A program made the translations under genes and the position numbers. From positions 1 through 64,000 of the forward strand of contig WTXI01000167.1 in the NCBI GenBank assembly GCA_022376515.1: 64,000 nucleotides of DNA, given 5' to 3'. The notes below the pieces were generated by a model. The model made no database searches. It had not been told where the DNA came from and worked only from the letters and a program-made list of their open reading frames with translations. Source of the stretch: Lactifluus volemus (lineage: Eukaryota; Basidiomycota; Agaricomycetes; Russulales; Russulaceae). Positions 4,046 through 47,523 of this stretch are shown here, piece by piece. How positions within the stretch are numbered: position 1 is the first letter of the stretch; each line of letters starts with the position of its first letter.

Positions 4046-4195
4046 TAGTGTTGTCACGGCTCGGCTCAGCTCGGTTTCGGCTCGGCTTCAACCATTTTTA
4101 GTAATTCGTGCCAAGCTGAACCGAGCCGAGCCGATTCAACTGTGCGGCTCGGCTCGATTCAGCTTGCAAGCCGCTTGAGCCGTTCTAATTTCCTC
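4046..4195 (+). repeat. hAT left terminus with GGCTCGG subterminal repeats
   Basis: After the terminal TAGTGTTGTCAC, the motif GGCTCGG or its complement CCGAGCC recurs at least seven times up to about 4190. Such clusters in hAT elements are typical transposase binding sites. The mirrored cluster lies at the right terminus. Confidence 0.75.
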
Positions 4196-4444
4196 TTTTG
4201 GGGTGATGACCATTGTTGGAAAAAACCCTTGGCTGCCATCAACAAGGCATCGCTTGGCACTTGCATCATCAGCTTCCCCGACACATCTCTACTCTGGGCA
4301 TGCCTGGGCATCGTTTGCAAGCTCAATTTCATGATCCGGGAATGGGGTTCACAGCCCTAGAGGAGAGTGGTGGTAGGTCCCTCTTGGTTATGATCAATTA
4401 TCAGAGCGAACTAAAGTGGTACCTTCACAGACTACAAAAACACC

Positions 4445-4993
4445 GTCAGGATCATTGATGAGCCTGATTACACAGTTGAGCTCGACCCAAGTGCTCCTGA
4501 AGCCGATGTAAAACGCACTGCTAAGGAAGCCCTCAAAATATATGGGCGAATCGATGTCCTCGTCGATATTTTAAACCCGGTGCTGTGGAAGAGCTCCGGT
4601 TAGTGTTTGATCCTTTCGTTCGGGCCCTCCGAGTGGATTTCGAGCCTGTAATTAATTGCTGCACGATTTAGGCCCGAAGACATCCACGCACAGTACCAGA
4701 CGAATGTATTTGGACCCATCGCGATCATTCAGGCATTGCTGCCTTCATTCCACGCGCAAGGGTACGGCCACATCTTGAACATATCCTCTATGGCGGGCTT
4801 CGTGAGACAGAGTTTTATCGGGGCTTACAACAGCTCCAAGGCGGCACTCGACTCGTTCTCGGAGACGCTCGCGCTAGAAGTCGCACCCTTTGGTGTACTT
4901 CACACCATCGCGGCAAGTGCTCTCCCAACCAACGTTTTGGTGGCGGCGGCCAAGAAGGCTAGTGATGGGCGCGTTGGCCTTTCAGGATCGTAG
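4445..4993 (+). pseudogene. Short-chain dehydrogenase/reductase (SDR) fragment
   Basis: The fragment covers the middle of a classical NAD(P)-dependent SDR. It has the D/E-rich turn and helix (VRIIDEPDYTVELDPSAPE), YGRIDVLV before the NNAG position, then RPEDIHAQYQTNVFGP, HILNISSMAG with the catalytic serine, and YNSSK with the catalytic Tyr and Lys. A clean GT-AG intron (4599-4671) rejoins ELRPEDI. The N-terminal TGxxxGxG nucleotide-binding motif and the C-terminal third are absent. The frame also slips by one base around the NNAG site (about 4570-4580). It is therefore a truncated, non-functional piece, ending at a stop at 4991-4993 just before an unrelated fragment. It lies just inside the left hAT terminus and looks like captured cargo. 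No substrate can be inferred. Confidence 0.7.
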
Positions 4994-5242
4994 ATGTCGA
5001 ATTGCATGGCTCACCACTTTGACCGCCATTGTTGTTCCCTTCGCCCTCTTCTTCCTCACTTTCCCACCACGTTTCTCTCTTCACGGGATGGCTAGATGGC
5101 CCTTCACCCGAAATCCACGAGGCCAGTGTGGCTAACTCGCGTTACCTCTGGTCTGGCGTCATGCCCTTCTGTGCATGTGAGTGTACTTTTGCTTTTCGCT
5201 CTCGCTCAATCTAAGTGACCCTTCAGACCTATCGAAGAAAGT

Positions 5243-6116
5243 ATGTCATTCCCTTCCCAGGACGTTCCCTCGTCCCCACTCAACCCAACCCACCTCTCCT
5301 CTTCCACGACTCTGCCAGAGTTCCTGCGCGGTAACCGTGCCCACGCCCACGTTCACACCCGTACCAAACCTGTCCTCGAACGGTATCGAGCCACCACTAT
5401 CCCCTTCGGCAACCACACACTCTCGCTGGCACTTGCGTCTATTCGCGTGACCTCTCAATATTTTTCCCCCATCCGGGCTCTCTACCGCACAACACGATCA
5501 CCGAGGATGGTGCCCAGGAGATCGAACTTCCCCCCTCGCGCGCGGATGTCCCAATACCCAGTACATCTCCGACGGCCTTTCGGCCACAGCAAAAGCTCGG
5601 AGAAAGTTTCACCTTTGGAGCACGTTCTTCGTCCGATGCCGGTACCAACGGCGACGCCCTCACTGACGACCAACCGCCACTACCTTGTGCGTCCCGCAGA
5701 GGGCACCACCAAAAGTACTCCGCAACTTTTTTTCATTCCTCGATCCGAGCTCAACTGCGTTCGGAGATCACGCCTCGCAGCTCACACCACCAACATCGGC
5801 ATCTCCCCAGTCTGCGGGTTCAAACTTCGTTTCCTTGTAATTCGTTGTCACCCGTCTCACCACTTTCCGACACCAGCGCTTCACCCTTTTCTCACCTAAA
5901 TGACGATTCTTCTCCTGTAGGAGCCGTCGTCGCAGCCGTCGGGCAGCTCACGCTTGGTGGGTGGCTATGGATCATCGGCCAGGGTATCGGCTCGCTCGCA
6001 TGCATCGGTTTGGGATACTGGGTCGTCTTTGACACAATCGGCGTCGTCGTCAACAAGATTCTCCCAGCGTATCTCCATCGGCCCGTGCAAAAGGCCCGGG
6101 TACGACGTCCGTTTGG
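5243..6116 (+). pseudogene. Msc2/Zrg17-like zinc transporter (cation diffusion facilitator) fragment
   Basis: The recognisable part is about 5905-6116: GGWLWIIGQGIGSLACIGLG, then YWVVFDTIGVVV, ending KARVRRPFG. This matches the first transmembrane region and RRP(Y/F)G loop of fungal endomembrane zinc transporters of the Msc2/Zrg17 group. Upstream (5243-5890) are Ser/Pro/Thr-rich frames that could be its cytosolic N-terminus but are frame-scrambled. The protein stops being recognisable directly after RRPFG, where the family should continue with five more membrane segments and the His-rich loop. GPI13-like sequence starts within a few bases instead. That abrupt junction supports a captured fragment. 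The family call is from memory of the motif and is moderately secure. Confidence 0.55.
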
Positions 6117-8856
6117 GTGCACACCACTTTTGTTACTTCGAATCCCCTTGTCCTCAAGTTATACCATTTATCTCAACAGCAGGTTGTCTCTTTCCACCAT
6201 CGCCGACTGCTCTTCCTCTCATTCTCCCCGTACACTACCACCCACTCACAAACGTGCCATCCTTCTCATCATTGATGCCTTTGCTTCGACTTCTCTCTCC
6301 ACATCCCTCAGAACCTCATTCCACTTACCATCACAATGTCTTGACCCTCCCTCGCGAACTCACTGCCAAGCAACCACACAACTCGTTTCTCTTCAATGCT
6401 TACGCTGACCCCCCAACAACGACTCCAGCGTATCAAGGGCCTCGTCACTGGCTCTCTCCCAACGTTCGTAGACATGGGTTACAACTTTGGAGGTGCGTCC
6501 ATCACAGAGGACTCTATCATCCTCCAGCTCTGACAAGCAAATAAGAACGTACGTCCTCCACCACGGTAACAGATCTTCCTGACCCTCTCCGCCGGCCTCC
6601 AGATAGCGTTCATGGGTGACAACACCTGGCTCTCTGTCTTTCCCACCTCTTTCCACCCAGGGATGACCCACGACTTTGATTCCTTCAACGTCGAAGATCT
6701 CCACACCGTCGACAATGGCATCATCGCCAACCTTTTCCCTCTCTTAACAAACTCGACGCACGCTCACACTTGGGATTTCATCATCGGTCACTTTCTCGGC
6801 GTCGACCACGTCGGACATCACGTAGGTCCCAATCACCCAACGATGCTAGCCAAGCTGCAACAGATGAACGACGTCCTGAAACGTGTCGTCGACCTGCTCG
6901 ATCAAGACACTCTCCTTGTCGTTCTCGGAGACCACGGCATGGACCGCAAGGGTGACCACGGTGGCGACAGCGACCTCGAAGTCTCTGCCGGCTTGTGGAT
7001 CTACTCCAAGGGTCCACCCTTATCCTCCAGCAACCACCATCAATCGCCGACCATGCACCTGCCACAGATCACCTTCCCAGGCGAGCGTTCTCCCCATCGT
7101 TCCGTGCAGCAAATCGATCTCGTGCCCACCCTCTCCCTCCTTCTCGGCCTCCCCATCCCTTTTAACAACCTCGGCACGGTTATACCCGAGCTCTTCTGGC
7201 GTGATCGTGCCGCCGGTGAATACGCCAAGGCGCTCGATATCAACGCACGTCAGGTGCGCTCCTATCTCGAGGCGTATCGCAACAGTGCTTCTGGCGCCGA
7301 ACTCGACGGCGTGTGGAGCGTGCTGCAAACTTCTTGGACCAACTTCTTCTCGCACGCCAGTGGCGAGCCAGGTCTAGAAGCAGCGGCGGTCGAGTTCACG
7401 CGTCTGGCGCTCGAGACGTGCCGTTCTCTCTGGGCGCGATTCAACCCCGTGCTCATGGTGGCAGGATTAGTCGTGGTCGCGCTCAGCCTTTGTGTCAGCT
7501 GGACGGTCTATGCGCGTAGTGGACGGTACTCACTGGATGAGTGGGACCGCTATTTGGCCTCTCTCCGTCGAGTGATTGTGACATCTTTGGGCGTGGGCGT
7601 AGCGCTCGGGTGAGTTACACATGCATCCCTTGGGAGCGTTGTTCAGCTGTTTGACGGAGTGACCGCAGTTCAATTTATTCTCTTCGGGGCCTCACTTTGT
7701 TCCACCCTTGACGTTCTTCTCGGCCTATCATCACCTCCGCCGCCCCCTCAAAAACCACCATTCCGTTTCTCTTCCTCTTTCGTCGTTTTACTCCTCCATT
7801 CGATCGCCTTTGTCTCCAACTCGTACACCTTTTGGGAAGACCGCGCGGTAGCCTTCCTGCTCCCCTTTACACTCCTCCCACCGCTTCTCATCGCACTATC
7901 AGCGCCGACTGCAAGTCTGCGGCGTCGCATCCTCGCGTTTTGCGCGTTTTTCGTGGTCTGCGTCAGGTTGATGGCCATCAGTACCGTCTGCCGCGAGGAA
8001 CGACAACCTTGGTGCCATGTGACGTTTTTCTTCTCCGGTGGTACCGACGCAGCCGCTGCGGAACCGCCACCGACAACACAAGAAGGGGCGCTATTCCATT
8101 ATCCGATTTGGACCTGGCGAGCACACGGCGACGCACGACGTAAGGACCCAGCAGCGCGGCCGCGGGAAGTACGAGCGCATGGACGAGCCTTTGTTTCCCC
8201 AACGGCTTTGGTGGCAGGTTCGGCCTGTTGGTTACTCGAATGGCTCGACTCGTCAGGTGCTAGTGGTGCTACAGCTACGTATTTCGTCGATCTTCGCACG
8301 ATACATACGATATTAGCATGGACGAGTTTGATCGCGGCTCTAGGCGGTATCGCGCTCTGGACTCTCGTCCCCGTCACCTTAGACGTTTCCTCAGACACCG
8401 GAACCGGCGCCGCAAAGACAAAAAAGAAGGGAGTTCGAGTGGTGGTGTTGGGGTTTGCCAATGCGTTTGGAGCACCATTTGTGCTCCTGTGGACGCTCGC
8501 GCTCGTACCGGTATGGCTAGCCTCGCAACCGAGCGCACAGATCACTTTGGCACTCGCCACTATCGCTCTGCTTGCGCATTTAGAGCTCGTAGATGCGACG
8601 CGTGACGCGCGCGGTCTACAATCGAGCTTTGCCCTCGATCCTGCCGCCACGTTAGCTCACCTACAACAAGGTAGCAGCACAGCACCAGGAGGGACAACGA
8701 TGATGACGACGACGTCATTTGACGAGATTGCGCCGCTCGTGTTATTAGCCCAACTCCCTTATTTCGCAACTGGACATCAAGCCACATTGTCGAGTTTGCA
8801 ATGGAAAAGCACAGTCATGCTCAGTTCAAAATTATCTTATCCACTCTCTCCCATCC
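6117..8856 (+). pseudogene. GPI13: GPI ethanolamine phosphate transferase 3 (PIG-O/Gpi13), first part, disrupted
   Basis: Gpi13 adds ethanolamine phosphate to the third mannose of the GPI anchor precursor in the ER membrane. Visible landmarks are the N-terminal hydrophobic segment and SRLSLSTIADCSS (about 6180-6215), KRAILLIIDA with the metal-binding aspartate of the alkaline-phosphatase-like fold (6245-6280), GSLPTFVDMGYNFGG (about 6450-6490), IAFMGDNTWLSVFP (about 6605-6650), HFLGVDHVGHHVGPNHP (about 6788-6840) and LGDHGMDRKGDHGGDS (about 6920-6970). A multi-spanning membrane half follows, to ATGHQATLSSLQWKS at about 8815. Breaks: frame change near 6425, in-frame TGA at 6531-6533, and an unresolved frame or intron at about 7611-7650. 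An intron of about 57 bp ending just before 6604 splices cleanly. The gene is then cut by a Plavaka element at 8857 and resumes at 24322. Confidence 0.85.
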
Positions 8857-9037
8857 CATCAGCAAAATGATATTTTACTGGAGCGACTTTTGTCACTAGC
8901 GTCACTAGGTTACTGGCTCTAGTGACATCTAGTCACCTAGTCAATTCTAGTAACCAATTCTAGCCAATTCTAGGAACGACATAAAGTTTCTAGTTACAAC
9001 AGAAACTAATCTAGATCTAGGTAGTACAGAAAGAATA
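8857..9037 (+). repeat. Plavaka left terminus and CTAG subterminal repeats
   Basis: The inverted terminal CATCAGCAAAATGAT is followed by repeated CACTAG, CTAGTGAC and CTAGTCACCTAG words, probably transposase-binding sites. The last codons of the transposase end at 9038. Confidence 0.75.
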
Positions 9038-11494
9038 TCAGAAAGCGATTTCGTGTGCGTGATGGTCAATATACTTATTGACGTAATATGCTTTAAAAGT
9101 ATCGAGTGATACTACTGAATTTATTTGTATTGGTAAGGGATTACGACCATAAATCGGGATAAGATGAGCAGCGCGCAGGATCGCGTCGAGGTGAATAACA
9201 GCCTTGTGGCGTCTGTTGCAGATATAATCGGGATGCACCACCCACATTCCAGTGATGCTGTCCACGCCTACCGTTGTGAACCATTCGACAAACGCACATG
9301 GAAACACTACATCATTGTACACAAATGAAAAAAATGTCCGGATGCGGGCAACGTTGAGTCCACGCATTCCCGGCCTCTCATCGTCCTCGACCACAAACAC
9401 GGTGTCATATCTTGGTCCCCCTCCTCACCACGAAGGCGTTGCTCGTATGCGCTCGCGCCGCATGCCGCAGACGCCACTGGGATCGCTCGGTGCAAAGAAA
9501 GTTGCAATCGCAGAATGGAAGACTTTCACATCGATGGTGTATGGCAGAAAGCCCGCTGGTATTCCATCTATTCCAAGCTGCTCGGAAAGGAATGCCTGTG
9601 TCAGTGTGGGGAGATCAGCTTCATTTATTTTGGCCGCAAGTTCTTGCAGAGCCCCGGGATAGGATCTCACTAGTTCCAGCACAGTATATTAGATTCAAAC
9701 TCATATAAAATGTGTAGCGGTGTTACAGTACTTACCACAAAAACGTGCAAGGACAACGTGCCCAAGCACGTTCATATCTGAGTCCACAGGCCCTTCATCG
9801 TCATCGTCACCATCACTGTCATTGTCGCGTGCAGGTGGGTTATCGATTGGGCGGGGGAGGAACGAGACATTGGGAGGAGGCATATGGCCAGCTGGCAGCA
9901 TCCCGCGGGCAACAAAGTCAGCCTGCATCGCTGCGAGCTTGTCGAGGCGCTGGTTTGTCATGAGCATTTGTCCAAGCGTGTTATTCCGACTAGAGCGCCG
10001 CCATGGTTTCTTGACGGCAGTAATATGACGAGATTCTGTGATGGATGAGCAAAGCCCACCTGGGGCACCGAAGTCTTGGATAAGGGTGTGATAGTGTGTC
10101 AGCATATGCTGACGCGGAAGGAAAAAACCTGTTGGTCGGACACCGGTAGTACGAAATACTTCACGCAATCGCAGGAACTTGGAAAGTGAGTGATCGAAGT
10201 TGTTCAAGGCGTCCTCGTTTATGTCTTGGCGGCGGGAGATGTAGCAGGCGTCGAGGAAGGACGCGATACATGCTACCATGTCATCTGGTACATAGCCAAC
10301 AATCGCAGGAAGATACACCTATCTCAAGTATAAGTCATGGGGAATCGCATCACTAGCAGTGTGAAAATACCTTCATCAAGGCTTTAGAGTCATCCCCTGT
10401 CCACTGCTTGAAGCGGCGACCATGAGGAAAGCGGCGAAGACCTGGGAATGGTGGTACGGCAGCGATTCTTCCTTGGTGTGTGAGCTTGATGCCAGTATGG
10501 AAAGAAATCCGTGACGCACCGACAGTCAATGTCATCAAGGATCTTGTTTGCCTGACTTTCATTCCAAGCGATTCTCAAGTAGTCCACAACCCACGTTACA
10601 AGGTGATCTTTGAACGCGCCTTTGATAGCTTGGTGTAGTAGATCGGGCGAAATCATCTCGTTGATATCTGCACGTGGAAAATCAGCGGTGAATGGCTGTA
10701 ATATCCATCAATAATACATAGATGGGATGAGAATCCAATACTCACAATAATGTCGTCATTGATTCCATATTTTTCCCAAAGCGACTTGGAATCTAGAAGA
10801 CAAATGAGCTCGTCCGTGAGCACGCCCGTTCGCGGCACTGAAATGGCGTCTGGGTTATTTGGCGAGGCGGTACACCTATTCCAGTATTGGGATTCAGTTG
10901 CCCAATTCCGACTCTCCGAGTCCGAGTCAAACTAAACTACTTACTTTGGGCACCAACCCTGGACAATCCCTGTCAACATGACTTGTTCAGGGTAGTCAGC
11001 GATGAAAGCTACCAAGTCGTAGATGACCCGCCGGTAGTGGCCATCGGGGCATTGTCGGACGACTGGCCTTGTCATCCCAGGTCGAAGCGGCTGTAGCACC
11101 GCAGATATCAACGCATGGAATAATTGCCGCTTGAATTTGCGAAACTCCAGATCGTTGTCATATCGCCGGTCACCTAGATCATCGTGTTCATATAAATATA
11201 CCTTAGTCGTTATAAAATATGATGTAACGTACTTTTGGGGATAGCGAGAAACGCTATCGGTATCACGGCATTGCGGTGTGCACGTCGCACTGTATTGTGT
11301 GGATTGCCGATTGATAGGTACAACGGATGATATTCGACATGTCCAGTGGCGACTGAGACTGTGGTCTTGTCACTGCCTAAAATAATCGGGCAGTACATCG
11401 CGCCACGTGTCTCGACATCGCGCAGCGTGGCAATGACATCCTATGATTACGAAGTCAGCCTAATGTATGGACAATGAATACAAACTTACACAAT
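9038..11494 (-). pseudogene. Plavaka transposase, C-terminal part (split by Gypsy-1)
   Basis: The piece reads from the Gypsy-1 target site (11494) down to the stop at 9038. Blocks in order: DVETRGAMYCPIILGSDKT and HPLYLSIGNPHNTVRRAH (about 11210-11430), the plant-CACTA-like catalytic region; HLVTWVVDYLRI (about 10600); YLPAIVGYVPDDMVACIASF through RPTGFFLPRQHMLTHYHTLI (10100-10318); APGGLCSSITESRHITAVK (about 10000-10060); and the conserved tail GMRGLNVARIRTFFSF, TGMWVVHPD, VIHLDAILRAAHLIPIYG and YYVNKYIDHHAHEI. These match the transposase that defines Plavaka elements of Agaricomycetes. Several GT-AG introns separate the blocks. Apart from the retrotransposon it looks largely preserved, but transcription is interrupted. 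Confidence 0.8.
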
Positions 11495-11499
11495 GATAC
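11495..11499 (+). repeat. 5-bp target duplication of Gypsy-1, left
   Basis: GATAC precedes the left LTR. The same bases follow the right LTR at 19244-19248, defining a single 7,744-bp insertion. Confidence 0.9.
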
Positions 11500-12014
11500 T
11501 GTTACGGAATGCAGGACAAGTTGGACCTTATGCTTCCTACACACGCTTACTCATCCTGATGACGTCCCTTCCACAAGGCTCTTATTGTGCTGACTGATTC
11601 TATTGTTCTGACTCCTTATTGTCTGTCCGGTCTTGTCCAGTGTTATTGTCCCGAGCCTCTATTGTTCGCGTTCGTTATTGTTCTTGACCTCATGCCTATT
11701 GTCCACCCTAGTTTGGTAGAACAATTAGCGTAAACTGTATAAGTAGGCCTCTGCTGGTAGCTTGTACCCCAGCTTCGGCTTTAACCCAAATCGACTCGTT
11801 TCACTCTCCAGAAAGACAGATCCTCTCCTCTCCTCCTCCCCCTCTTCTCTTACCCTCCTATACGCCTTAGTAGGGCCATCGAAGCTTGGTGGTTGTGCTA
11901 CAACACCACAGGACTCAGCGTGTCGACACTTGGAGTGTCCCTGAGCCCAGGTCTTAGGAGAGACCAGAACAACCAGAACCCTTGTTGGGACCCAGCCCTA
12001 GTCGAGCCGTAACA
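11500..12014 (+). repeat. Gypsy-1 left LTR
   Basis: 515 bp. A TATAAG box lies at 11738-11743. The sequence AGCTTCGGCTTT at 11771-11782, about 33 nt downstream, is complementary to the bases directly after the LTR, so it is the likely RNA 5' end (R start). Confidence 0.9.
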
Positions 12015-12026
12015 AAAGCCGAAGCT
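12015..12026 (+). promoter_or_regulatory. Gypsy-1 primer-binding site, Tf1-like self-priming
   Basis: AAAGCCGAAGCT abuts the LTR end and is the perfect 12-nt reverse complement of 11771-11782 within the same LTR. No TGG of a tRNA-type site is present. This is the arrangement used by Tf1/sushi elements, which prime minus-strand synthesis with the 5' end of their own RNA. Confidence 0.75.
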
Positions 12027-12038
12027 CTTCTCTAGTAG

Positions 12039-14015
12039 ATGTCCACTTGGGACTATCTACAACAACCGACCTATCTACGGATCAAAGAATTGTTGATCGA
12101 CGCACATTTGAACAAGAACGAGGCAATACAGAAACAGTATAACGCCAAACGAAGATCGGAGCAAAGGTGCTGGAAAGAAGTCAGCATTTCCTGTGTACGC
12201 ACCATTGGACACCTAGAAACAATCTTGGGTGCAGGAACGGAGCTGTTCCAATCTGAGCAAGGAAACACACTGATCCTCTACCTACCGGGGGATCACATTG
12301 CCTTCCATACGCAAGGCTGGACAGGAATAACGACGGGTCTTTAATCGTTGTCTGGGATACGAACGAAGACGACCTCGGAACCAGGGTCATCCCCAGAGAG
12401 GACGACGACCTAACCATCGAACAAAAGGAAGCATCAGATTCCTAGAAGATAGGAGGCAAACGCACCAGCTATACCAGAAACCAACGACCTATTACTCCTA
12501 TCACGAAGAAGAAGGGTCAAGAACCAAGTACAGGTCTCCCTGCGAATTCATCAACAATCGGTGGTACAACATCTACTGGTCGAACAGCGAGTACTGGACC
12601 GACCCCACCATGAAGTTCACTAAATACGATTACATCCTTAACGAGCTAGAACTCCCCCCCTCGATGCAACCATCAGAAGCCAGCGAGACGAGAGTGAGAA
12701 TGAAGATGGAGCAACATCCCCCCAACAGGATTCAGCAGGAGCAAACTCCTCCTCTGAGGACAGCCAAACCAGAGTACCCCCGCCCACACAAGAGAATGAA
12801 GAGCCCAGGATGATTACACCAATCACCCCCATAGACCACGCCATGAGTGCTCTTAGCATCACTTCACCAACCCCCATGTTTACCCGCTCAGCGACTCTGA
12901 CGCAGCCAACCCAAACCACGGCAATGGCTGGACCAAGCCAGGGTGGTGGCGGAGGTGGTGGCAGAGGTGGTGGCGGTGGCGGAGGCGGCGGTGGCGGTGG
13001 TGGTGGTGGCGGAGGGGCGTGGCAGCTGCAGCAGTCGGGGCCCAACCAGTCCCCCACCCCAGAAATGGCCTAAAAGGGATTCCACCGACGCCATTCAAAG
13101 GAGACAAGAGTTGTACGACGTCTTCAAAACGGAATGGAGGATGTACAAAGCTATCAATCGAAACCACGACGACATGCTTGTCCCCTACAACCGTGTCATG
13201 ACAATGTAGGGATGGTCAAAGGGCCTTTGGTGTCAGCATGGGTACAAGACTACCTAGACACAATCGAACAAGAAGTGGTCCAGCATGGGGAAAATGCGGA
13301 AATCCTCTGGGACAATTTCGAAAACGCCCTAGACGACGCCTTCAAAGATACTAACGAAGAAGATGATGCAATCACAAGGCTGGAACACCTAGAAATGAAG
13401 AAAGGAAACCTGGCTCAATACACGGCGAATTTAATCGTCTCAGAAAGAAGGCAGGATGGGACGCCGATAGCAGCGGCACCATCAGAATGTACAAGAGGGG
13501 ACTAGACCTAGGGCTCCTCACCAGCATGCTCAAGCAAGTGGGGGCCAACCCCACCACCATGAAAGATTGGCAGGAGCTGGCCACTCAGCACCACGATGCG
13601 TACCAACAACTAAAGCACGAAATCAGCTTCAGGAAAGACGTCCCTCGGTGGGCCAGCCAAATCATAGCCAAGAAGAAAGAGACCCCCCCTCAGAAAGATC
13701 CCTGGGCTATGGAATCGATGTCACCAGGACCGACTCAGCTAAAGCGGACGAAAACAAAGGCTGAGAAAGGAGGGACGGTGCTTCTTCTGCAAAGAACAAG
13801 GACACCTCTCTAGGGATTGCCCTAAAAAGAAAGGACAAAACAATCCCAAACCGCCACAGCACCCAGAGCTAGAGTCAGCAAGAAGGAGGATGACGAAACC
13901 ACCAAGTCGGTGACGACGAGGATCCCATCCAGATGCTTAGAGCATCAGGGCCAAGATTGGGAAGGGAGCCTTCAACGGCGCCTTGGACGGGCTGGTAGAA
14001 GAAGAGGATTTTTGA
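12039..14015 (+). pseudogene. gag: Gypsy-1 gag, frame-broken
   Basis: The N-terminal 101-codon frame starts MSTWDYLQQPTYL (12039-12344). It continues one frame back as NNDGSLIVVWDTNEDDL, an arrangement shared with Gypsy-2. The middle includes FTKYDYILNELELPPS (12614) and a glycine-rich tract (about 12945-13016). The capsid-like part follows (YDVFKTEWRMYKAINRNHDD, near 13110-13180), then DPWAM and the CCHC knuckle (CFFCKEQGHLSRDCP-like, about 13785-13825), ending EEEDF-stop at 14015. Frame breaks include a stop near 13070 and single-base losses near 12427 and 13715. Gag packages the RNA. This copy cannot make full-length Gag as written. Confidence 0.75.
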
Positions 14016-18691: not shown

Positions 18692-18727
18692 GGTGGCAGG
18701 TGGGACTGCCTTCTAGAGAGGGGGTAT

Positions 18728-36503: not shown

Positions 36504-36537
36504 GGTTCGTTCGTTCGTTCACAAATGTGAGAGTAAG

Positions 36538-36549: not shown

Positions 36550-36550
36550 G

Positions 36551-37156
36551 TGTTAAGGTTCCAAGTGGGACCTTTGTACGAAGTGTGCGTTCGTTCGTGA
36601 AGTCAAGAACTAGACTTGCAAGACGTGCAAGTCAAGATCAAAGATTCGATAGAGACGAGACTTAGTAAACGACTAAGTCAAGAGCGTTTCAGAGGTCAAG
36701 GGCTTTGGGCTCAGGGTGAGACCAAAGTGTCAAGAAGTCGAAGGTCGTGATGTCAAGAGGGTTCTCTCAGGTCTGATGCTTCTAGGCAAGACAAGGTTCT
36801 AATAGATAGAAGGACTTGGATTGCGAAACAAAACTGAGACTTAAGGTCTCTAGGGCAGAAAGTACAGGGTTTATATAGAAAGAAGCGAGGCTATGTGCAC
36901 AGCCGTAGGGGCTGTGACCTTCGTACAGCTTTCAGGGTTTGAAACATGTTTCAGGAATCAGCAAGTCATCCTGTGCATGTGGCTGTTGCTTGAGGCTGTA
37001 CGGTGCTGTGCAAGGCTGTATCGTGAGAGAAATAAGTAAGCGATCTGAAACAAAGCGATCGGCAGTCCATTCACATAAGCAAGGGAGTCAGCAGAAATGA
37101 GTTATCAGTCCGAAAATGTACGGTATGAGTCAGCAAACACGTGTCAGTCCATAACA
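36551..37156 (-). repeat. Gypsy-3 5' LTR (right in window)
   Basis: 606 bp; contains the minus-strand TATATAA box and R-region start described for the primer site. Followed by the GAAGG duplication. Confidence 0.92.
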
Positions 37157-37161
37157 GAAGG

Positions 37162-37729
37162 CAGGATGGGACGCCGACAGCAACGGCACCATCAGAATGT
37201 ACAAGAGAGGACTGGACCTAGGGCTCCTCACCAGTATGCTCAAACAAGTAGGGGCGAACCCAAACACCCTGAGAGGCTGGCAAGAGTTAGCCACTCAGCA
37301 CCACGACGCATACCAGCAATTGAAGCATGAAATCAGCTTCAGAAAGGACGTCCCTCGGTGGGCCAGCCAGCTCATGGCCAAGAAGAAGGAAACCCCCCCC
37401 AGAAAGATCCCTGGGCCATGGACATCGATGTCACCAGAACCGACTCAGCTAAAGCGGACGAAAAACAAAGACTGAGAAGGGAGGGACGGTGCTTCTTCTG
37501 CAAAGAGCAAGGACATCTCTCCAGGGATTGCCCTAAAAAGAAAGGGCAAAGTAATCCCAAACCACCACAGCAGCCCAGGGCTAGAGCTAGCAAGAAGGAG
37601 GACGATGAAACCACGCAAGTCGGTGACGACGAGGACCCCATCCAGATGCTCAGGAGCATCAGAGCCAAAATTGGGAAAGGAGCCTTCAACGGTGCCTTGG
37701 ATGGGCTGGTAGAAGAAGAGGATTTTTGA
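37162..37729 (+). pseudogene. gag: Gypsy-2 gag, C-terminal part
   Basis: Resumes gag after Gypsy-3: MYKRGLDLGLLTSMLKQVGA, ISFRKDVPRWASQLMAKKKE, then a one-base shortfall in a C-run (about 37392-37400) before DPWAMDIDVTRTDSAKADE. The CCHC knuckle (CFFCKEQGHLSRDCP) and Lys/Pro/Arg tail end in EEEDF-stop at 37727-37729. The C-run break is absent at the same place in Gypsy-1, which is broken elsewhere. Confidence 0.8.
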
Positions 37730-40700
37730 ATGGCTCGACCCGTGCAGCCTGGGTGCGAGCCCGTCTTACTCAAATATGTCGTATCTCGAGAACCAATACA
37801 CTGGACATTCCCCTATTGTTCACGAGCGCGACCAAGACGGCTGCCGAAAAAGCACTACTCGACAGTGGCGCTACAGAAAATTTTATCGACCCAAGAATGG
37901 TGGAGAAGCTAGGCCTGGGATCCATAAACCTCCAGGAACCACGAACGGTGTTCAACGTAGACGGAACGGAGAATCAAGACGGTAAAATTACCAGCTACTG
38001 TCTTCTCAACATCCTCAAAGGACGCAAAGAAGCCGCCCAGGTCTTCTATATCACAAACTTAGGCGAAGATCGGATCATCCTGGGATATCCCTGGTTACGG
38101 GAATTTGACCCTCAGATCAATTGGAAGGAGGGAAAGATTCGAGGGCCACCCATCAAGCTATCCACCACCGGACGAAGTTGGAAGCTGAAGTGGGCGGCTC
38201 GAAGGATGAAAATGTGTAAAACGAGTTTCAGTCAACAGTGGGCACAACGAGAGGGAAAAGGGCAAAGCAAGGTAGCCGTGCCGGAGCAGTTCCAGAAGTA
38301 TGCCAAGGTCTTCTCAGAAGAAGAGGCAAAACGCTTTCCCCCTTCACGCCCCGAAGACCTCGTTATCACGCTTCTGCCAGAGGCCCCGAAGACAATCAAC
38401 TGCAAGACATACAAATTAACGGCGGAAGAAACCAAATCGATGAGGACGTTTCTCACAGAGCAGCAAGATAAAGGATACATCACAAGGTCGAAATCCGCAT
38501 GGTCCAGCCCTTTCTTCTACATCAAGAAGCAGGATGGGAAGTTGAGGCCCGTCTATGACTACCGAAAAGTGAACGAATGGACGGTGAAGGATGTGTACCC
38601 CCTCCCCCGCATCGACACCATCTTCGACCAAATGGGAGACGCCAAGCTAATGTCCAAGTTTGACATTAGAGATGGATATTACAACATTCGGATTCACCCG
38701 GACAGCCAGTGGATCACGGCAGTAAAAACAGACGAGGGGCTGTTTGAAGCCAAAGTCATGCCTTTTGGATTGTGTAACGCACCCGCCGCCTTCCAACGAA
38801 TGGCAGACCGCATCTTTGCTAATCTGAAAAAGAAATACCCTCGTTGGGTTCACTGGTACCTGGACGACTTCCTCATCGTAACCCCTGACGACCCAGAACT
38901 GCACGATCAAATCACCAAAGAATACCTAGAAGTTTTGGAGAAGGAGTCACTCTTTCTGAAGCCGGAAAAATGTCAGTTCGCCAGAAGAGAGATCGAGTTT
39001 CTGGGGTACGTCATCGACCAGGGCACCATTCGCATCGACCCGAGCAAGAAGCACGGTCTAGCAGAGTGGCCACGACAACTGAAATCGGTACGGGAGGTCC
39101 GCAGTACGCTCGGAGTCTTGGGCTATCAACGGCAGTTCATCCCAGGATTTGCCAATGTTGCTAGACCTCTGACTAACTTACTGAAGAAGACAACCAAGTT
39201 TGAGTGGACAGAGGAATGTACGCAAGCGGTGGATCGACTAATCAAGGCAGTCACTAGCGACCCGGTCCTACAGAGACCTAACTTGGCTGAACCATTTGTC
39301 TTAGAAGTCGATGCGTCACAATACGCTAGTGGAGCAATTCTCCACCAACCGGACAAGGATCAGAAGTTACGCCCTGTGGGATATTACTCGCGAACGTTCA
39401 ACCAAGCAGAGAGGAACTACGATATCCACGACCGGGAGCTACTGGCAATGATCCGAGGTTTGGAACACTGGCGGCACCTTCTATTGAGCTCCCCGCACGT
39501 CATCACTGTCGTCAGCGACCACGCTAACCTTCAGTATTACCGGGAAGCGCACAAGATCAGTCGACGGGTGGCGCGCTACATCCCTAAGATGGCAGAATAC
39601 AACATGAAGATTGTCCATCGACCGGGGAAGACTAACAAGGCCGACCCACTGTCGCGACGACCAGGATGCGACCAGGGGGAGAATGACCACGAGGATGTGC
39701 TAGTCTTGCCCCCAGAGCTCTTCGTGCGCCTCTTTACGGAAGAACAGTCATTAGAACAAGAAGTAGAGCGCGCTCAAGAGAAACATCAGCAGCAGTTGGA
39801 AGAGTGGACGAAAACAGAAGGAGTGCGAAAGCACCAACACGCTTTGGGACCAAGTGGTATCACCACGACCGATTGGCGGTTCCAGAAGACCCCACGACGC
39901 ATCGAAGCATTCTGCAAATGTACCACGATCACAAGACGGCGGGGCATCCGGGGATCATGAGGACTTGGTCCACGATCGCTAAAGATTACTGGTGGCCCAC
40001 GATGAGAACATTCGTCACCAAATACGTGCAGGGGTGTGCAACTTGTCAAAGCACCAAGAGCGGCACAACCAGACCCAAAGTCCCCTTGGTACCCATTCCC
40101 CCAAAACAAAGCTACGCCCCATATTCGACGATTGCCCTAGACCTGATCACAGACCTCCCGGAGTCGCAAGGCTACGACAGTATTCTACCATCACCGACCA
40201 CGACTGTAGCAAGGCGGCATTCTTTATCCCTTGCAACAAAACCATCGACAGTGAAGGAGTCGCGAGATGCTATGCCAAAGAGGTGTTCCCCCATTACGGC
40301 CCCCGAAGCGGGTGATCTCAGATCGCGATCCACGCTTTGCATCAAAATGGACGAGAGAACTGTGTAGACAATTGGGGATTGATCAGAACATCAGTACGGC
40401 ATACCACCCCCAAACAGATGGCCAATCGGAACGAACGAACCAATGGCTAGAACAATACCTGCGCGTCTATGGAAACTTCCAACAGAATGACTGGGTCAGC
40501 TGGTTGCCTCTAGCCCAGTTCGTCCACAACTCGTGGATCAATGAAACAACAAAACAAACCCCGTTCGACTTACTTATGGGACACACCCCACGGTATGGCA
40601 AACTGATAAGGAAGGGAAGATGCCAGCAGTAGAACGGCGCAAAGACTATTTGATGGAGAAACGTAACCAAGCGCGTCAAGCGATCCAAAGGGCGCAAGAC

Positions 40701-42416
40701 CTCCTCCAAAAGCGGAATGTGCGAAAGAAGGGTAGACGAGCATACGAACCCTTCAAGGAAGGAGACCAAGTTTGGTTAGACGGGAAGAACCTCAAAACGT
40801 CGCACCCCTTCGCCAAGTTAGCCCCAAAAAGATATGGCCCATTCCCAGTGGTCCAGGTGATTAACCCGGTAGTTTTCAAACTGAAACTCCCGGATCAGTG
40901 GCGTCAAAAACGTGTCCACCCTGTCTTCCATGCGTCCCTTCTATCACCATACAAGGAGACGGAAGAAAATGGGCAGGCCTTCACGGAACCAGCCCCAGAT
41001 GTAATAGAAGGTGAGGAAGAATACGAAGTCGAACAGGTGTTGGACTCCCGACGAAAAGGGCGTGGCAAGGGGCGCCTCGAGTACTTCCTGAAGTGGGAAG
41101 GGTACCCCCACGCCCACAACACCTGGGAACCAGCTGACCAGGTACACGCGGATGACTTGGTGGAAGAATTTCACAAACAAAACCCAACAAAGGCAAGGAA
41201 GATTATAATAAGCGGGGGAGGATGGACAGCAACAATGCAGCTTCGCTCCCTCTTCCAAGAGCCTAACGAACCCCCCTTCGTTACCCCTCACTTCCGCGAG
41301 TTCTTCCTCAAACACAGATCCACATCACCTACGCCCATCATAGCCAGCACAAACACTTCTGTCGGGAGGCCATCTGCGCTTCCCATTACTAACGCCCCGG
41401 TTACCTCGCTCCCCTATACTTGGGAGGAGATTCAATCCGCAAACCTTGACCTCTCTCTCCCGCGAATTTTCCAAGCTTCCCGGGCAGACGCAGACTTCTT
41501 CGATCCCAAACGAGAACATCGCACCTCCCCCGGCTCCTTCATAGTTGACTACCGCCAAGTTCGTCTCGTGTGTCTGGGGATCCCGTATGACTGGCCAGTG
41601 GGGCGCGAAAACAACTACGAGTGGCCTTACAATCCCTATAAGTACTACGAGGATACCCGACAGTGTCTTCACTGCCTTTTCGACTTCAAGTGGAGGAGGG
41701 ACCACCCCGGAGCTCAGAGACGCACCCGCATCTTCACTGACGGCCGTAGCACCATGGTTGCCCAAAGGCTGGGTGACTTCGCTAGACCAGAGACCCCTGA
41801 AGAAGAATGGTTTGAGGAAGACGACGAAGGCAGGCTACAGATCAACCTCCTTCGTGCTCCCACGATCCCCGCTGTCGTGGCGGCGCAGACAGACGGCTGG
41901 GTCCCGGATCTGCCCCCTCAGACCCGTAGCGTTGGCACCCAGACGACCCCAGTTAGCACGCAGGACGAAGCCATTCAAGCGTTCCCCACCTACGGGACCA
42001 CCGAATATTGGCTCGACCAGAGGGACGGTAATCCCGGGGGTCCTCAGCAGAGAGATCGGGATATGGAACCACGAGCGCGCCTTACTCTTCACCCACACGG
42101 ACTTGATCGCTTGGGACTTGATTCCGGAGGCCTTCAGAGATTCGATTTTCCAAATGACTCTACGCCGCGTAGAGAACTGAAACACTGCCGTTTCCACAAC
42201 AGGATGATGACCCACAACAGTGACGGCTGCCCCTTCCCTCACTTCTCCTGTATGCCCGGGCTTGGAGTGTGCCGCGTCCCTGAAAACCACACATGGCACG
42301 GTGGGGGATGTCTTTTGGATGGCACTGCAGAGGAGATCAAGAAGAAGCGCAAGCAGATGGAGGTCCTAGACACTTGTGTCGCCGGCCCGTCCCAGTCACG
42401 ACGTAAAACTGACTAA
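37726..42416 (+). pseudogene. pol: Gypsy-2 pol, frame-broken after RNase H
   Basis: One open frame (37726-39960) covers protease (LLDSGATENFIDPRMV), reverse transcriptase (WYLDDFLIVTPDD, about 38860-38890), RNase H (LEVDASQYASGAILHQ) and the start of integrase. Frame changes follow near 39810, 40190, 40310 and 40600. The zinc domain (HDHKTAGHPGI...CATCQ), core residues (ALDLITDLPESQG; SDRDPRFASKW; YHPQTDGQSERTNQ) and chromodomain (EEEYEVEQVLDSRRKGR to HNTWEPADQV) are all recognisable. The final frame (40620-42416) also encodes a Cys/His-rich extension ending RRKTD. Pol begins -1 to gag at 37721-37729. Confidence 0.85.
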
Positions 42417-42452
42417 GGTGGCAGGTGGGACTGCCTTCTAGAGAGGGGGTAT

Positions 42453-42956
42453 TGTTACGGAATGCAGGACACGTTGGACCCTATGCTTCCCGTGACCTGG
42501 TTACTCATCCTGATGACGTCCCGTCCACATTGTCTCTATTGTGCTGACTGTTCTATTGTTCTGATTGTGCTATTGTCTGTCCCAGTGTTATTGTTCTGAG
42601 TCTCTATTGTCCTCGCGTTCTATTGTCTTGACTCCTTGCTTATTGTCCACCCTAGTTTGGTAGAACAATTAGCGTACATTGTATAAGTAGGCCTCAGCTG
42701 GTAGCCTGTACCCCAGCTTCGGCTTTGACTCAAATCGACTTGTTTCCCTCTCCGGAAAGACAGAACTTCTCCTCTCCTCCTTTCCTCTCTTCTCTTACCC
42801 TCCTATACGCCCTAGTAGGGTCATCGAAGCTTGGTGGTTGTGCTACAACACCACGGGACTCAGCGCGTCGACACTTGGAGTGTCCCTGAGCCCAGGTCTT
42901 AGGAGAGACCACAACCAGAACCCTAGTTGGGACCCGGCCCTAGTCGAGCCGTAACA
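42453..42956 (+). repeat. Gypsy-2 right LTR
   Basis: 504 bp, same length as the left LTR and no difference noticed. Preceded by AGAGAGGGGG and followed by TTGAC. Confidence 0.92.
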
Positions 42957-42961: not shown

Positions 42962-43649
42962 CATATGCAAATGCATCATGTGTGCTGTTAGCTTCATCAG
43001 TAGTGCTACAATTTATATTAGCTTTATTTTAAAAAATGGAAAAATCTGTCACTCACAGGCAAAATGTACACTTCCTTGAGTTGTTGTCATTATTGTCCTT
43101 GAAAAAGGTGTAGACATCTCTAGCATGGTGACCTTTTCTGTTGCCAGCAGGTCCTGAGGCCCGTTTATTTGCACGCTGCTGCCGGCGACTGGGCGTAACA
43201 GGAACAGGGTCAATTGGAAGATTGGTGGTGGAAGCCTGTCTCTCATCAGGAGCAGAGCCTGAGGCATCATCAGGAGCAGCAATATCAGGCTCAGGTAATG
43301 CTGAAGAGATAGTAGAGAGATTGAAAGTCTCAAGGTGAGGAGAAGACGCTTGCGGAGGTGCAATAAAAGGATCATCTCCCACGTGATGCTGAGGCTCAGG
43401 CTCAGGTTGAGGGACATGAGAAGAGGATCCGGCAGCTGTGGGATCTAACAAGGGAACCTTAGCCAGATAAATGATGATGAAGCTATAGAGATACAGACCA
43501 AGACGGAAGGTTGTCTGGAGAGCCCCGCCCGGAAGAATTACGTCAGCACGAGCACGAGAACCTGAGGCCGCGGTTGTTGCCTTAGATCTCCGAGATGCCC
43601 TCTTCTTGGGGGAAGGGGTGCTTGGATTGCGTCGCTTTCTGCCAGCCAT
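42962..43649 (-). pseudogene. hAT transposase, N-terminal part
   Basis: Begins MAGRKRRNPSTPSPKKRASR, a basic nuclear-localisation-like stretch. A probable intron (about 43450-43540) follows, then Pro/Ser/Asp-rich disordered sequence, RRQQRANKRASGP, and the first half of the BED zinc finger (KGHHARDVYTFFKDN, RKCTFC). Another intron leads to STTDEANSTHDAFAYGQ, which meets the Gypsy-2 target site and continues at 27523 with the second finger half. The start is well supported by the downstream open frame. Confidence 0.78.
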
Positions 43650-44294
43650 AGAAACAACAGTGAGATAGCACTAGAAAAGCACAGGATCGAAAGCTTGGAC
43701 TTGATGGTGGGGGTTGGAAAGAGAGATCGATAACACAACGCAAAAGTGAGGCTGACAGAGTTACGCCCAAAGTCCAGCTCACGTGCTTAGTCGAAAGCTC
43801 CACCACCGCTGATTCTCGGAATGCCCATAGCTGAACCACCCTATGCGCACTTCTCCTCTTGTGTACATCCAGTACCTCCACTTCCTAGTTGCATATTCAG
43901 CCATTCTCGCATAAGTTGAAAGTCGCTTGCCCAGTTCCCCTCTCGTCGATGCTCGGTGTCCAGCGGAAGGAAAAGCAAACAAATGGAACATTTCTGCTCC
44001 CCTCCACTCGGTTCTGGTAGAAATTTCTCACCTTGCTGATGAAAAGCAGAACCCAGAGTCCAAATGGGTAGGGGATCTCAGCAGGGTCAGCTCTTTTCTT
44101 GTTTTTTTCTGGCCACGCTCACCAGTTTCTTACTGTTTGTCTTGCTAGTTGTTGGTGCCGTCAATCCCAGTTGTGTTAGTCAGACATTCAATGATGAAGC
44201 CCTCCGCAAGGTCGTCGATACTATCAACGTTTCTTGAAGGCGTCTATATCCCTAACTTAATCGCATCGCCCTTCACCGTCAACAAAGCCTAGCG
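43650..44294. other. Unassigned fragmentary sequence between transposase and Skt5-like relic
   Basis: Short frames such as VEISHLADEKQNPESKW (about 44020-44065) and PSCVSQTFNDEALRKVVDTI (about 44160-44230) look like exon remnants of other genes, but I do not recognise them. No terminal inverted repeat lies beside the transposase start. Confidence 0.3.
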
Positions 44295-46559
44295 TTGTCC
44301 GTCAAGTACTCTGTGCTTCAAACTTCGCATCGTAAACGACGCTCGTCTGTGAACCGGCCAGATATCGTCGACGACCATGAACCACCCTCGGCAGCGTCTC
44401 CAACGACACCTGTATTGCAAACGCCAGCTTTACCTCTCCCCACCTCCGAAACTGCACGGGATGAGAGCGACGCTCAACCCGACCTTCCAGCGCGAAGTCC
44501 GACGCCGAACGCAAGGAGTCCTAGCGTTGAGCGTAGTCGAAAACATGGTCTGGACATACTCATGGGGGTGTCACCGTCTTCCGCAACATACCGCTACGAG
44601 ACCCCGCTGGAACGGTGAGGTCCGGTAGTTGAAGAGGACGACGCTCCCGATCACGATCACAGTCAGGCACCCCCCGTCCCACGTTCGACGTACAATCGCC
44701 GCTCAGATACACCCCCTCAAGTACCTTCGCCTCATCCACCTCACGTTCCCGTCGCACCTCCAGATATCTCGGCAGAGTCGACTGATGATGGTGGCGTTCC
44801 CGCATATACGCCGAACACGGCTCAAGACTAACCCCATGTGTTCCCAACCTCGCCTTTTGCCACACCATTGCGCGAAAGGCAGGGTTCCGATGAAGAGGAA
44901 GAGGATTTGCATACAGAAAATGATATGCCAAGGCGTCCGCCGTGGAATGACGCATATGACCGTCAGATGAGTTGGGTAGCTGAACCTGGTCAGTTCCTTA
45001 AACATGATGCCTCTTCATTATGACTCATTACAATGTCTATGTTAGTACTAGAGCGGATTCCCGTCCATGACGAAAGCGATAACGATGAAGCAGACGATAT
45101 GGACGAACCAAGGGGCCATCCTTCTGCTCCGCAGCCCTCGGACGATGACGAATCGTCACCGCGGGCGTCCACCTGAACTCTTGTAGAAGATATCGAAACC
45201 TCGCCCGAGGTTTCGAAACAGTAGCGACCGTGGAGGTTCCCCAGCCGGCATACGTTTTTGGCCTCCTACTCCTAGGGGAGTTCTCTCTTGCTACTATACC
45301 TCCACACTTCGTCCTTCCGCTCGTTCCTCCCGGAAGTTTGCGCGACAATGAGGCTCAACGCCATCTGGAGCGCGCAGCGTACCTCAACTTTCAATATAAG
45401 CTCGGACATGCATACGAGTTTGCGCAGCTGCCGTTCCCATTTGATGCGCTGCTCTCCGTTCAGTACTATTCGCTCGCGAGCCAGCAAGGGGAGATCGAAG
45501 CAGACATGGCCCTTAGCAAATGGTTCCTCTGCGATTCGGAGGGTTCTTTCGACAAGGACGAATCTCTGGCATTCACCTTTGCTGAAAAGGCTGCACGCAA
45601 GGCCCTCCCTAGCGCTGAATTCGCCATGGTTCACTATATGGAAGTCGGCGTTGGTGGTCCGAAGGATATTGATGCTGCGCTCAAGTGGTACACTCACGTA
45701 AGTCAGCGGCCTGTTGTCCTGTCAATTCCTTAATTTATGATTTCCTCATTTGTATCCAGGCATCTCAACATGGGAATACAGACGCGACTGATCGGCTCGC
45801 CGCGCTCTCCCAGCCTGCGCCGCAGGCCCTCTCCCGCCAGGAATACGACAACCTAATGGAAACTATCCTCATGCGTAAGCGTACTCAGGCTAAGCAACGT
45901 TCCGATGCTCGTGGAGGACCACGCCACGGCGGCCGACAGAATGGCCAACAAGTCGTCGCTAACATTCGCAAGAATTCGGTCACTCACCGTCACGGCACAG
46001 CACAACCGCTCGATCGTCCTTTCGCGGGCATGCGTCCAATCAATGACGGCGGTTACGGCCATGCGGCTGACGGCAGACGTCGACCGTCTTTGAGCGGTGC
46101 AGGCATCTCAAACCTGAACTCTTCGGAAGGTTATCCTCACCCGCAGCGACTTCCGCAGCAGCAACAGGTGCCGTTAAGCAGCAGTCCTGGCTCGGCCGGC
46201 GATGTCGGGTATCGTTCACGGCAAGCAAGCATAAGCGCTCAGGGTGGATACCCTTCACCACAGCCACAGGTTCGTGCGGGCAGCCCGGCACCCGGTGGGT
46301 ATCCATCACCTCGCATCCCTCCTGCGCAATCCTATGGAATGCCGCCGGGGAGACCACCGTTGCAACAACAACAACCTCTCGTCGGCAGTCTTGGGCGTCG
46401 TCACCAGGGATCAGCAAGCGGATCAACCCCGGTGCCTTCGCCTTCACCGCCTGTAGCGTCTGATCCTCCTCCGGCGCGCCCTCCACCGGCCAAAGGACCA
46501 GCAACGTTCCAGAAAAATGGGGAGACTTCGCAAAGCAGGTGCATCATGTGGCAACTGTG
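44295..46559 (+). pseudogene. Skt5/Chs4-like Sel1-repeat protein (chitin synthase activator) relic
   Basis: Proteins of this family bind and activate chitin synthase III at the plasma membrane. The N-terminal disordered region is present in shifting frames (44295-45030; e.g. WNDAYDRQMSWVAEPGQFL). Sel1-type helical repeats follow at 45340-45690: RDNEAQRHLERAAYLNFQYK, PFDALLSVQYYSLASQQGE, EADMALSKWFLCDSEGSFDK, AFTFAEKAARKALPSAEFA and VGVGGPKDIDAALKWYTH. A clean intron (45698-45759) joins to ASQHGNTDATDRLAAL and ALSRQEYDNLMETILMRKR. A long Pro/Gln/Ser-rich tail ends KGPATFQKNGET. The first several Sel1 repeats expected of the family are missing or scrambled before 45340, and the usual C-terminal prenylation-type end is out of frame. 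This is a decayed copy inside the hAT element. Confidence 0.68.
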
Positions 46560-47364
46560 AGCGCCGAGACACCCCACTGCAGACTTCCAGACCCATCCTC
46601 TCCTCTTTGTCTACGTCCCAGGGTCGTACTTTCACCATCACGTCCAGTAACCCCACCCTTCCACCTGAATTCCTCTCTTCTGTCCGTGATCTGGACTCAA
46701 TCAGCGAGATCCTCCGCGCCAAGCCCGCAAGAACACGCGCGCGGTGGAATTCCATTGCCTCCACACCACCCAGCAGCTGGCACGACCACATGCCAGCGCG
46801 CAGGCAGTCCCCGTTTCCCCGACTCTAGCAGGTGGCCTCACGGCCACACGTCCTTCACTTCCTCCATCAGCATTCGAGGAACATCACCCCGTTCACCACC
46901 ATCGACATCTACACACCAGCATCGTCAGCTCAGATCCAGTCCCAGAATCAGACCGTGGAGAAGATCACCCACCACGCTCAGGTCAACTGTCGCCCGATGG
47001 TTCGCTCGAGGCACGTGAGCGTGAAGATCCAGTCAGTCTGGAGTAGCCTGTCGAGTCACAACATATGTATATCACAGAGTTGGTAAACACCGTTTCAGAG
47101 GCAGAGGATGCTGAGCAGCATGACAAAGATAATCTATGGAATGATATGTAATCCAACATATGGCACGAGAGATGTAGTGAGTAATGTGCACTGTGAAGCG
47201 TGGTTTCATGTGAACACAGCTGATTGGGGAGAAGGAAGGGAGGGGAGGTAAGGTGGATGATCCAGTAGACAAGGGATGCTACGAGAACGGTATGAGACAG
47301 GCGCTGCAGGCACTGCCAGGCAGGCAAGTGCTGAAATACCATATATAGTAGGCATATCCAAATT
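46560..47364. other. Non-coding or unrecognised cargo end
   Basis: Open frames of about 100 codons occur but show no family motif. The stretch ends at the right hAT subterminal repeats. Confidence 0.3.
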
Positions 47365-47523
47365 GGGTAAATGAATCGGCTCGAAACCGCTTGAGCGGCT
47401 CACAAACGGCTTAGTTGCCAAGCTGAGCTGATTCAAGTCTTGAGCCGTTTAGTTCTGTGGCTCGGCTTGAATCGGTTCGGCTCGGCTCGGAAGCCGCTTC
47501 CGAGCCGAGCTGTGACAACACTA
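47365..47523 (-). repeat. hAT right terminus with GGCTCGG subterminal repeats
   Basis: Contains repeated GGCTCGG, GAGCCG and CCGAGCC words and ends ...GAGCTGTGACAACACTA, the inverse of the left end with one mismatch in 22. Confidence 0.78.

Follow-up and report, generated by a model that had tools for sequence, protein, structure and literature searches.

A large hAT insertion on contig C76

The 64,000-nucleotide stretch of Lactifluus volemus DNA analysed here (the window; positions 1–64,000 of contig WTXI01000167.1, which we label C76, in the 62.4-Mb, 628-contig assembly GCA_022376515.1) holds at 4046–47523 a 43.5-kb insertion that has the ends of a hAT transposon and carries fragments of host genes. 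The insertion is real, as an earlier note on this DNA had proposed. Its terminal inverted repeats (TIRs), at 4046–4067 on the forward strand (TAGTGTTGTCACGGCTCGGCTC) and 47502–47523 on the reverse strand (TAGTGTTGTCACAGCTCGGCTC, as read there), match over 22 bp with one mismatch; GGCTCGG-type heptamers cluster behind them, to about 4200 on the left and from about 47370 on the right, at 6 and 4 per 400 bp versus 0.22 per 400 bp in the interior; and the same 8-bp target-site duplication (TSD), GTTTATAG, stands at 4038–4045 and 47524–47531. The joined flanks match a paralogous empty site within the window (51015–51022), where one copy of GTTTACAG differs from the duplicated site by one base, and also match C201:3813-4074 at 92% identity, where GTTTATAG is exact and single. 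No extra terminus with ≤4 mismatches occurs inside this element or nine others of its family (10 of 10), consistent with the claim that the transposase has no closer ends.

From the left, and on the forward strand unless stated, the insertion contains fragments of a short-chain dehydrogenase (SDR) gene (donor C93/C621) with fragments of locus C68 (4480–5137; limits transferred from the aligned elements C618 and C589), a fragment of a cation-efflux-like gene (5243–6160; donor C46:487k; limits transferred from C618), and then the first part of an intron-bearing GPI13 fragment (6177–8856). The second part (24320–24709) lies beyond a Plavaka insert. On the reverse strand follow exons 2 to the end of a hAT transposase gene (24953–27528; dimerisation-domain region 24953–25270), whose first exon region (43053–43670) leads into a BED finger and alone has no significant Pfam match. 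Towards the right end lie a fragment of host locus C445:693-695k (44323–45217), with no Pfam match, and, between C445 pieces, a fragment of a Sel1-repeat, SKT5-like gene (45218–46524; donor C13:427-429k; right limit from C589).

Two later insertions enlarge this copy. A Plavaka element on the reverse strand (8857–24319; PF18759 match, E = 6.6e-25), with its own TIR CATCAGCAAAATGAT and a CC duplication, contains a long terminal repeat (LTR) element at 11497–19243 and cuts the GPI13 fragment in two. A forward-strand LTR element (27529–42956; TTGAC duplication, LTRs identical over 504 bp), with a second one nested at 29477–37156, cuts the transposase gene, and the C76 copy probably no longer makes its own transposase. 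All three LTR elements are Gypsy-type on our reading of their frames. Both inserts are missing from the sister elements C79, C589 and C618. Without them the unit measures about 12.6 kb, as had been estimated, compared with 15.2 kb for C589. Plavaka was considered as the carrier of the whole structure and ruled out on its separate ends and its absence from the sister copies.

A genome-wide family with shared termini

A search of the assembly with the 20-mer TAGTGTTGTCACRGCTCGGC returned 61 matches (≤2 mismatches) versus none for the reversed control. Twenty-six of these ends form 13 convergent pairs, each on a single contig after which we name the element (C76, C79, C589, C607, C618, C619, C1, C43, C501, C146, C11, C140 and C130). 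The 8-bp TSDs, for which pairing covered these 26 ends and six ends on C596 among the 61 termini, are perfect in 11 of the 13 pairs and all different; 7 of 8 positions agree in C11 and 2 of 8 in C589. Pair spacing is 12.3–24.3 kb, C76 alone spanning 43.5 kb. All 20 ends of ten whole elements show 0–1 mismatch to TAGTGTTGYCACRGCTCGGC, the elements having originally been located by the same motif.

Joined-flank queries for these ten elements gave an uninterrupted full-length match elsewhere in six cases (C607, 98%; C79; C76; C146; C501; C1, 85%). The 8-bp site is single and unchanged at the loci matching C607, C76, C501 and C146; it differs at one base for C79 and at two for C1. Most of these empty loci are paralogues, although the one matching C607 may represent the second haplotype. 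For C618, C43 and C589 no empty site was found, and the C619 flank matched a repeat only; because only the best 40 of 1070 candidates were scored, we give these misses little weight.

The elements C76, C618, C79 and C589, which occupy different genomic sites, align colinearly except for large insertions or deletions, with 95.8–99.4% identity over the aligned parts. Mismatch divergence is 0.60% between C79 and C589, 1.18% between C76 and C618, and 2.5–3.0% between these two pairs; sulfate-permease and Ras-like pieces occur in C79 and C589 and not in C76 or C618. On the earlier note's question of whether other copies carry the same cargo, the three sisters of C76 share much of it and family members otherwise carry different cargoes.

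Two further arrangements were observed. At C596:1551-27645, two 8.9-kb terminus pairs stand in mirror-image order with no matching duplications, resembling an inverted duplication. A second copy of the C146-type element, more dispersed, lies in pieces across 22 kb at C607:344011-366341.

The transposase

The C76 group, C43 and C146 have in common, at the protein level, an intron-rich reverse-strand transposase gene, and share nearly no other DNA. The C146 gene reads through 12 GT-AG exons and 864 residues with zero internal stops; no start codon was found in its first exon. Its Pfam matches are to Dimer_Tnp_hAT, at E = 4.4e-15, and to zf-BED, at E = 6e-5. Its seven best relatives among 7996 database candidates scored are 46–55% identical, and the named ones, from Pleurotus, Mycena and Armillaria, are annotated as BED-finger or hAT dimerisation proteins. 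The family thus combines an 8-bp TSD, a short TIR, and a BED finger with a C-terminal hAT dimerisation domain (C146), as hAT elements do. KDZ, which also makes 8-bp duplications, had been entertained as the carrier and was abandoned after the transposase matched hAT.

Across the genome, at least 88 transposase matches (52 of 258 candidates scored) fall into 32 clusters; among the matches listed, 12 clusters face a TAGTGTTG end no more than 45 kb away, and a cluster lies inside 8 of the 13 pairs. A direct search of ten whole elements found the transposase in C76, C79, C589, C618, C43 and C146. A hAT-like frame of another kind occurs in C619 (Dimer_Tnp_hAT, E = 1.7e-4; DUF659 below the cut-off, E = 0.0035). 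Two groups of transposase clusters without a nearby TAGTGTTG end (C202, C71, C120, C145, C344, C379 and C237; and C20, C1:1.9M, C89, C494 and C244) are about 40% identical to the family transposase over its middle part.

Cargo from dispersed host loci

Donor searches covered C589 over its full 15.2 kb and C501, C43 and C146 over their first 9.5 kb each; C607, C619, C1, C11, C140 and C130 were left out. C589 alone drew on eight single- or two-copy donor loci: the SDR gene (C93/C621, 90–91% identity), C68 (84%), the cation-efflux-like gene (C46, 87–96%), GPI13 (C268/C24, 93–96%), a sulfate permease (PF00916; C215/C596:642k, 98%), C445 (93%), the Sel1-repeat gene (C13, 95–96%) and a Ras-like gene (C596:737k, 96%; Pfam match below cut-off). 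Identities to donors range over 81–98% across the cases used, and the donors are separate loci that for the most part occupy different contigs; the SDR donor is a member of a small tandem family. In all four elements searched, fragments of different loci abut one another. A single 9.5-kb control stretch outside the element (window 54501–64000) gave three long blocks (1–1077, 1199–4035 and 4226–9500) plus paralogues. Judged by these matches, the cargo is host DNA, and at least six host loci are represented in C76 (limits partly from C589 and C618).

The earlier note had counted pieces of four host genes in C76. Host fragments are indeed present, from more loci than four, and for GPI13 and SDR the donors proposed could be located. 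The zinc-transporter fragment is a captured piece of the C46 locus, whose identity as such a gene comes solely from a sub-threshold Cation_efflux match (E = 2.7e-4). For the Skt5-like relic the Sel1-repeat donor on C13 was located, the SKT5 name being that note's own. The alternative raised there, that these genes stand in this order as normal genes free of termini, does not hold within this one genome, where the donors are dispersed and three more elements hold much of this cargo between the same termini at other sites.

The native GPI13 gene has an open frame at two loci, C268 and C24, which are 98% alike over 3–4 kb and look like two haplotypes. Its named nearest relatives (59–71%) are from Lactarius, Gloeopeniophorella, Multifurca and Russula, so the gene by itself points to a host probably in or near Russulaceae. 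The captured copy starts within the native gene, ends short of the native end in C76 and C618, and reaches exactly to it in C589. In the one case examined the native intron (GTACGT...CCAG) is kept, and an in-frame stop is present in C76 and C618. The C46 fragment continues past GPI13 in C589; that portion is missing in C76. Pfam matches were found neither for the C445 donor nor for several element frames.

Other members carry other genes. C501 holds a piece, 98% identical to its donor, of a gene with TIG and ankyrin domains that we take to be MGA2, together with a frame that has chitin synthase and quinolinate phosphoribosyltransferase parts. C43 carries elongation factor G and UDPGP pieces, and C146 is a comparable mosaic of fragments. 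TRIP12-like and hAT-like frames of C501, at first counted as cargo, were dropped; both lie in element positions 7682–13235 (C501:157005-162558), a 5.5-kb stretch that C1 lacks and of which the first 1.8 kb, with the TRIP12-like frame, is multi-copy at 97–100% identity (C116, C623 and C190). Because it is missing from C1 and its first part is multi-copy at such identity, this stretch is probably another mobile element, perhaps a gene-carrying one.

The chitin synthase and quinolinate phosphoribosyltransferase frame lies at 7387–7968 of the C501 sequence analysed, on the reverse strand, where a single open frame of 194 codons matches QRPTase_C and Chitin_synth_1; it is open in C1 too. It looks like two gene pieces fused in frame, and the search for a separate donor of the QRPTase part of the C501/C1 frame found none. 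Fatty-acid-synthase-like sequences occur at at least a dozen loci (C589:44-46k and 76-78k, C599, C612, C390, C207, C146:90k, C625, C233, C20, C26, and C79:466k and 518k). Multi-copy pieces of this kind lie within elements C607, C619 and C589 (FAS_I_H match in the C619 copy, E = 6.8e-51), and are possibly another amplified cargo family.

Nested captures and junctions

In three of the four elements searched, captured fragments are nested, with eight nests in total: in C589, GPI13 and the sulfate permease each within the C46 fragment, the SKT5-like piece within C445, and the Ras-like piece within the SKT5-like piece; in C501, the TIG/ankyrin gene within C223; and in C43, C190:43k within C113/C110, C34 within C190:215k/C52, and a C190:215k piece within C331/C1:211k. 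The inner piece is clearly nearer its donor than are both outer pieces in four nests (GPI13, permease, TIG/ankyrin and C34). Receiving DNA was lost in six (82, 4, 2, 201, 1023 and 32 bp), and the other two show overlaps of 5 and 2 bp. Two insertions have relatives in the pre-insertion state: the C445 fragment is unbroken in C607 where C589 has the SKT5-like insertion, its left border (donor position 163) being common to both, and the SKT5-like piece is unbroken in C618 at the point where C589 carries the Ras-like piece and lacks 201 bp. The order of capture is therefore partly readable from the DNA. In C618 the C445 piece is separated from the SKT5-like one by about 0.5 kb of other sequence. 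Of 18 junctions with borders defined by BLAST, nine share 1–11 bp, four abut and five have 1–11 extra bases.

Proposed serial capture and its alternatives

We consider it likely that the insertion in the window is a hAT element of a genome-wide family of large elements (terminus TAGTGTTGYC) that captures host DNA serially through repair with ectopic filler. We infer a process in which a mobile hAT undergoes error-prone gap repair. The element would move by cut and paste via its BED/hAT transposase, acting in cis or in trans, and the excision break, or a break inside the element, would be repaired from a sister copy. Repair synthesis would sometimes be interrupted and the gap filled with copies of unrelated chromosomal loci, joined end to end or via short microhomology and usually with some loss of element DNA; once its termini were restored, the mosaic would be mobile again and could undergo further captures. 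In the C76 copy, the Plavaka and LTR elements arrived afterwards, splitting GPI13 and the transposase. The kept termini, altered interior, varied templates, loss at joins, microhomology and self-repetition fit interrupted gap repair with ectopic filler. The earlier note's description of a gene-capturing, cargo-bearing hAT is thus borne out and was, if anything, too modest, because there is a family, with different cargoes and partly nested capture.

Several observations weigh against serial capture by repair or soften it. Two of the eight C589 donors, the Ras-like gene and a copy of the permease, are on the same contig, C596, at a distance of 95 kb; six pairings of the six C596 ends gave no matching duplication, and C589 is without a TSD (2 of 8). 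In four of the eight nests the inner piece is not clearly nearer its donor (three mixed, one about level), and conversion between donor and copy could blur such ages. Sharing of 1–2 bp at junctions is common by chance, the 11-bp overlap, read letter by letter, contains about 6 bp that are exactly identical, and no junction was observed in formation. The direct search found no match to the transposase in C607, C619, C1 or C501, and C140 has none among the genome matches listed. With five of the 13 pairs lacking a match and 20 of the 32 clusters, among the matches listed, facing no TAGTGTTG end, the transposase is linked to the TAGTGTTGYC termini, on which it may act, by association; the 20 clusters may be members of hAT families whose ends differ.

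Fusion of neighbours, as in the Pack-TYPE model, would have the outer ends of two close, related elements act as one and carry the intervening DNA. It is published for Pack-CACTA and has been broadened to include PIF and hAT elements of maize (PMC8903248, PMC13317346), and C596 has clustered termini in mirror-image order. We nevertheless consider it unlikely here, given that it predicts internal termini, of which none of ten elements has any at ≤4 mismatches, and that several source loci with nested fragments would demand one fusion per fragment, each leaving no ends. If the fragments were instead added one by one, as retrocopies or through the action of other mobile elements, the 5-bp overlap of the receiving fragment at the C501 TIG/ankyrin piece could be a small target duplication. 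Some of the content is clearly later mobile DNA (Plavaka and LTR in C76, the 5.5-kb multi-copy stretch of C501 that is not in C1), and in Pseudocercospora the H3 sequence of a hAT is an intronless copy (PMC6710886). Retrocopying is disfavoured for GPI13 because its intron is retained; moreover, six of the eight nests lose receiving DNA without a duplication and terminal repeats were not seen in nine junction views, and for the cargo as a whole separate addition appears very unlikely. That the 43.5-kb element is false, two short elements or an assembly join, is almost certainly wrong. C589 is without a matching duplication and has a contig end 2.9 kb away, and 29 of the 61 termini lie outside the pairing, but identical 8-bp duplications bound 11 of the 13 pairs, a paralogous empty site is exact and three sisters are colinear with C76. 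On the duplications, sister copies and empty sites we reject the idea, which the earlier note had proposed checking by a search for other copies, that the termini belong to separate short elements.

Serial capture by repair may extend further than the copying of fragments. A bolder form of it, which we hold tentatively and rate at somewhat less than even, is that hAT gap repair works as a self-renewing gene-shuffling machine, importing host DNA, partly into earlier imports, and making new joined reading frames such as the 194-codon frame of C501/C1; the extant copies would then be a readable time series of capture.

Relation to known elements

Among known systems, Pack-TYPE transposons, which include the Pack-hAT elements of maize, and the gene-carrying maize elements Ds2/Ds-l4 are alike in having hAT ends and intron-bearing host fragments copied from other loci (PMC3260210, PMC8903248). 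Capture of gene fragments by maize hATs is called rare, and repair of excision breaks is proposed as its cause (PMC3260210). The modal length of Ds-l4 is about 1 kb versus 12–24 kb for the L. volemus elements; unlike in maize, one L. volemus element has eight identified donor loci, many contain transposase sequence and some have nested captures in order. As in Pack-TYPE elements, host fragments lie between the termini and their donors elsewhere (GPI13, SDR, Sel1-repeat gene, sulfate permease and TIG/ankyrin gene). Pack-TYPE elements are non-autonomous, whereas eight of the 13 pairs here contain transposase sequence, one of them open through 12 exons; the family is therefore not a strict member, though it works like one.

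Fungal hATs that carry histone H3, in Pyrenophora tritici-repentis (PMC3538342) and Pseudocercospora fijiensis (PMC6710886), likewise amplified a captured host gene in many copies. Each carries one host gene, within a 5.6-kb element in P. tritici-repentis and as an intronless copy in P. fijiensis, in contrast to the many fragments, with an intron kept in the one case examined, of the L. volemus family. ToxhAT, or ToxTA, of wheat pathogens is also a cargo-bearing DNA transposon, of about 14 kb; first placed in hAT, it is now regarded by the authors of PMC12506042 as probably Tc1/Mariner, with a duplication of TA, and we dropped it as a hAT precedent after this reassignment. The L. volemus family differs from it in its hAT transposase and in duplications of 8 bp rather than TA.

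Starships, reported also in the basidiomycete Tremella fuciformis (PMC13066641), are likewise large cargo-bearing fungal DNA transposons. They have accessory genes and, at one end, a DUF3435 tyrosine-recombinase captain, where the L. volemus family has a hAT transposase and cargo that consists mostly of broken fragments. Membership of the family among them is unlikely because of its 8-bp duplication and hAT transposase. A Russulales survey names only Kyakuja among TET-bearing transposons (PMC12730594), and among the open-licence papers listed none described such a hAT family from Russulales or other basidiomycetes. Gene capture by hATs is itself known from maize and ascomycetes; multi-gene hAT mosaics of 12–24 kb with ordered, nested captures in a basidiomycete look like a new form of it. 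Whereas the ascomycete cases involve single genes, capture here has built large mosaics of several genes in a basidiomycete that forms mushrooms.

How cut-and-paste transposons acquire DNA of unlinked genes is an open question that the family addresses; a 2026 review allows that the mechanism capturing unlinked gene fragments may be undiscovered (PMC13317346). The family offers material that was so far missing, with many captures in one genome, surviving donors, pre-insertion relatives for two insertions and an order of nesting, and the repair-filler model is therefore testable from sequence.

Flanking genes in the window

On either side of the insertion stand copies of one kind of gene (2317–3774, 49273–50754 and 53155–54628), alike in sequence and presumably F-box-like. 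A 2.9-kb block of the C76 flank is present twice, at 82% identity.

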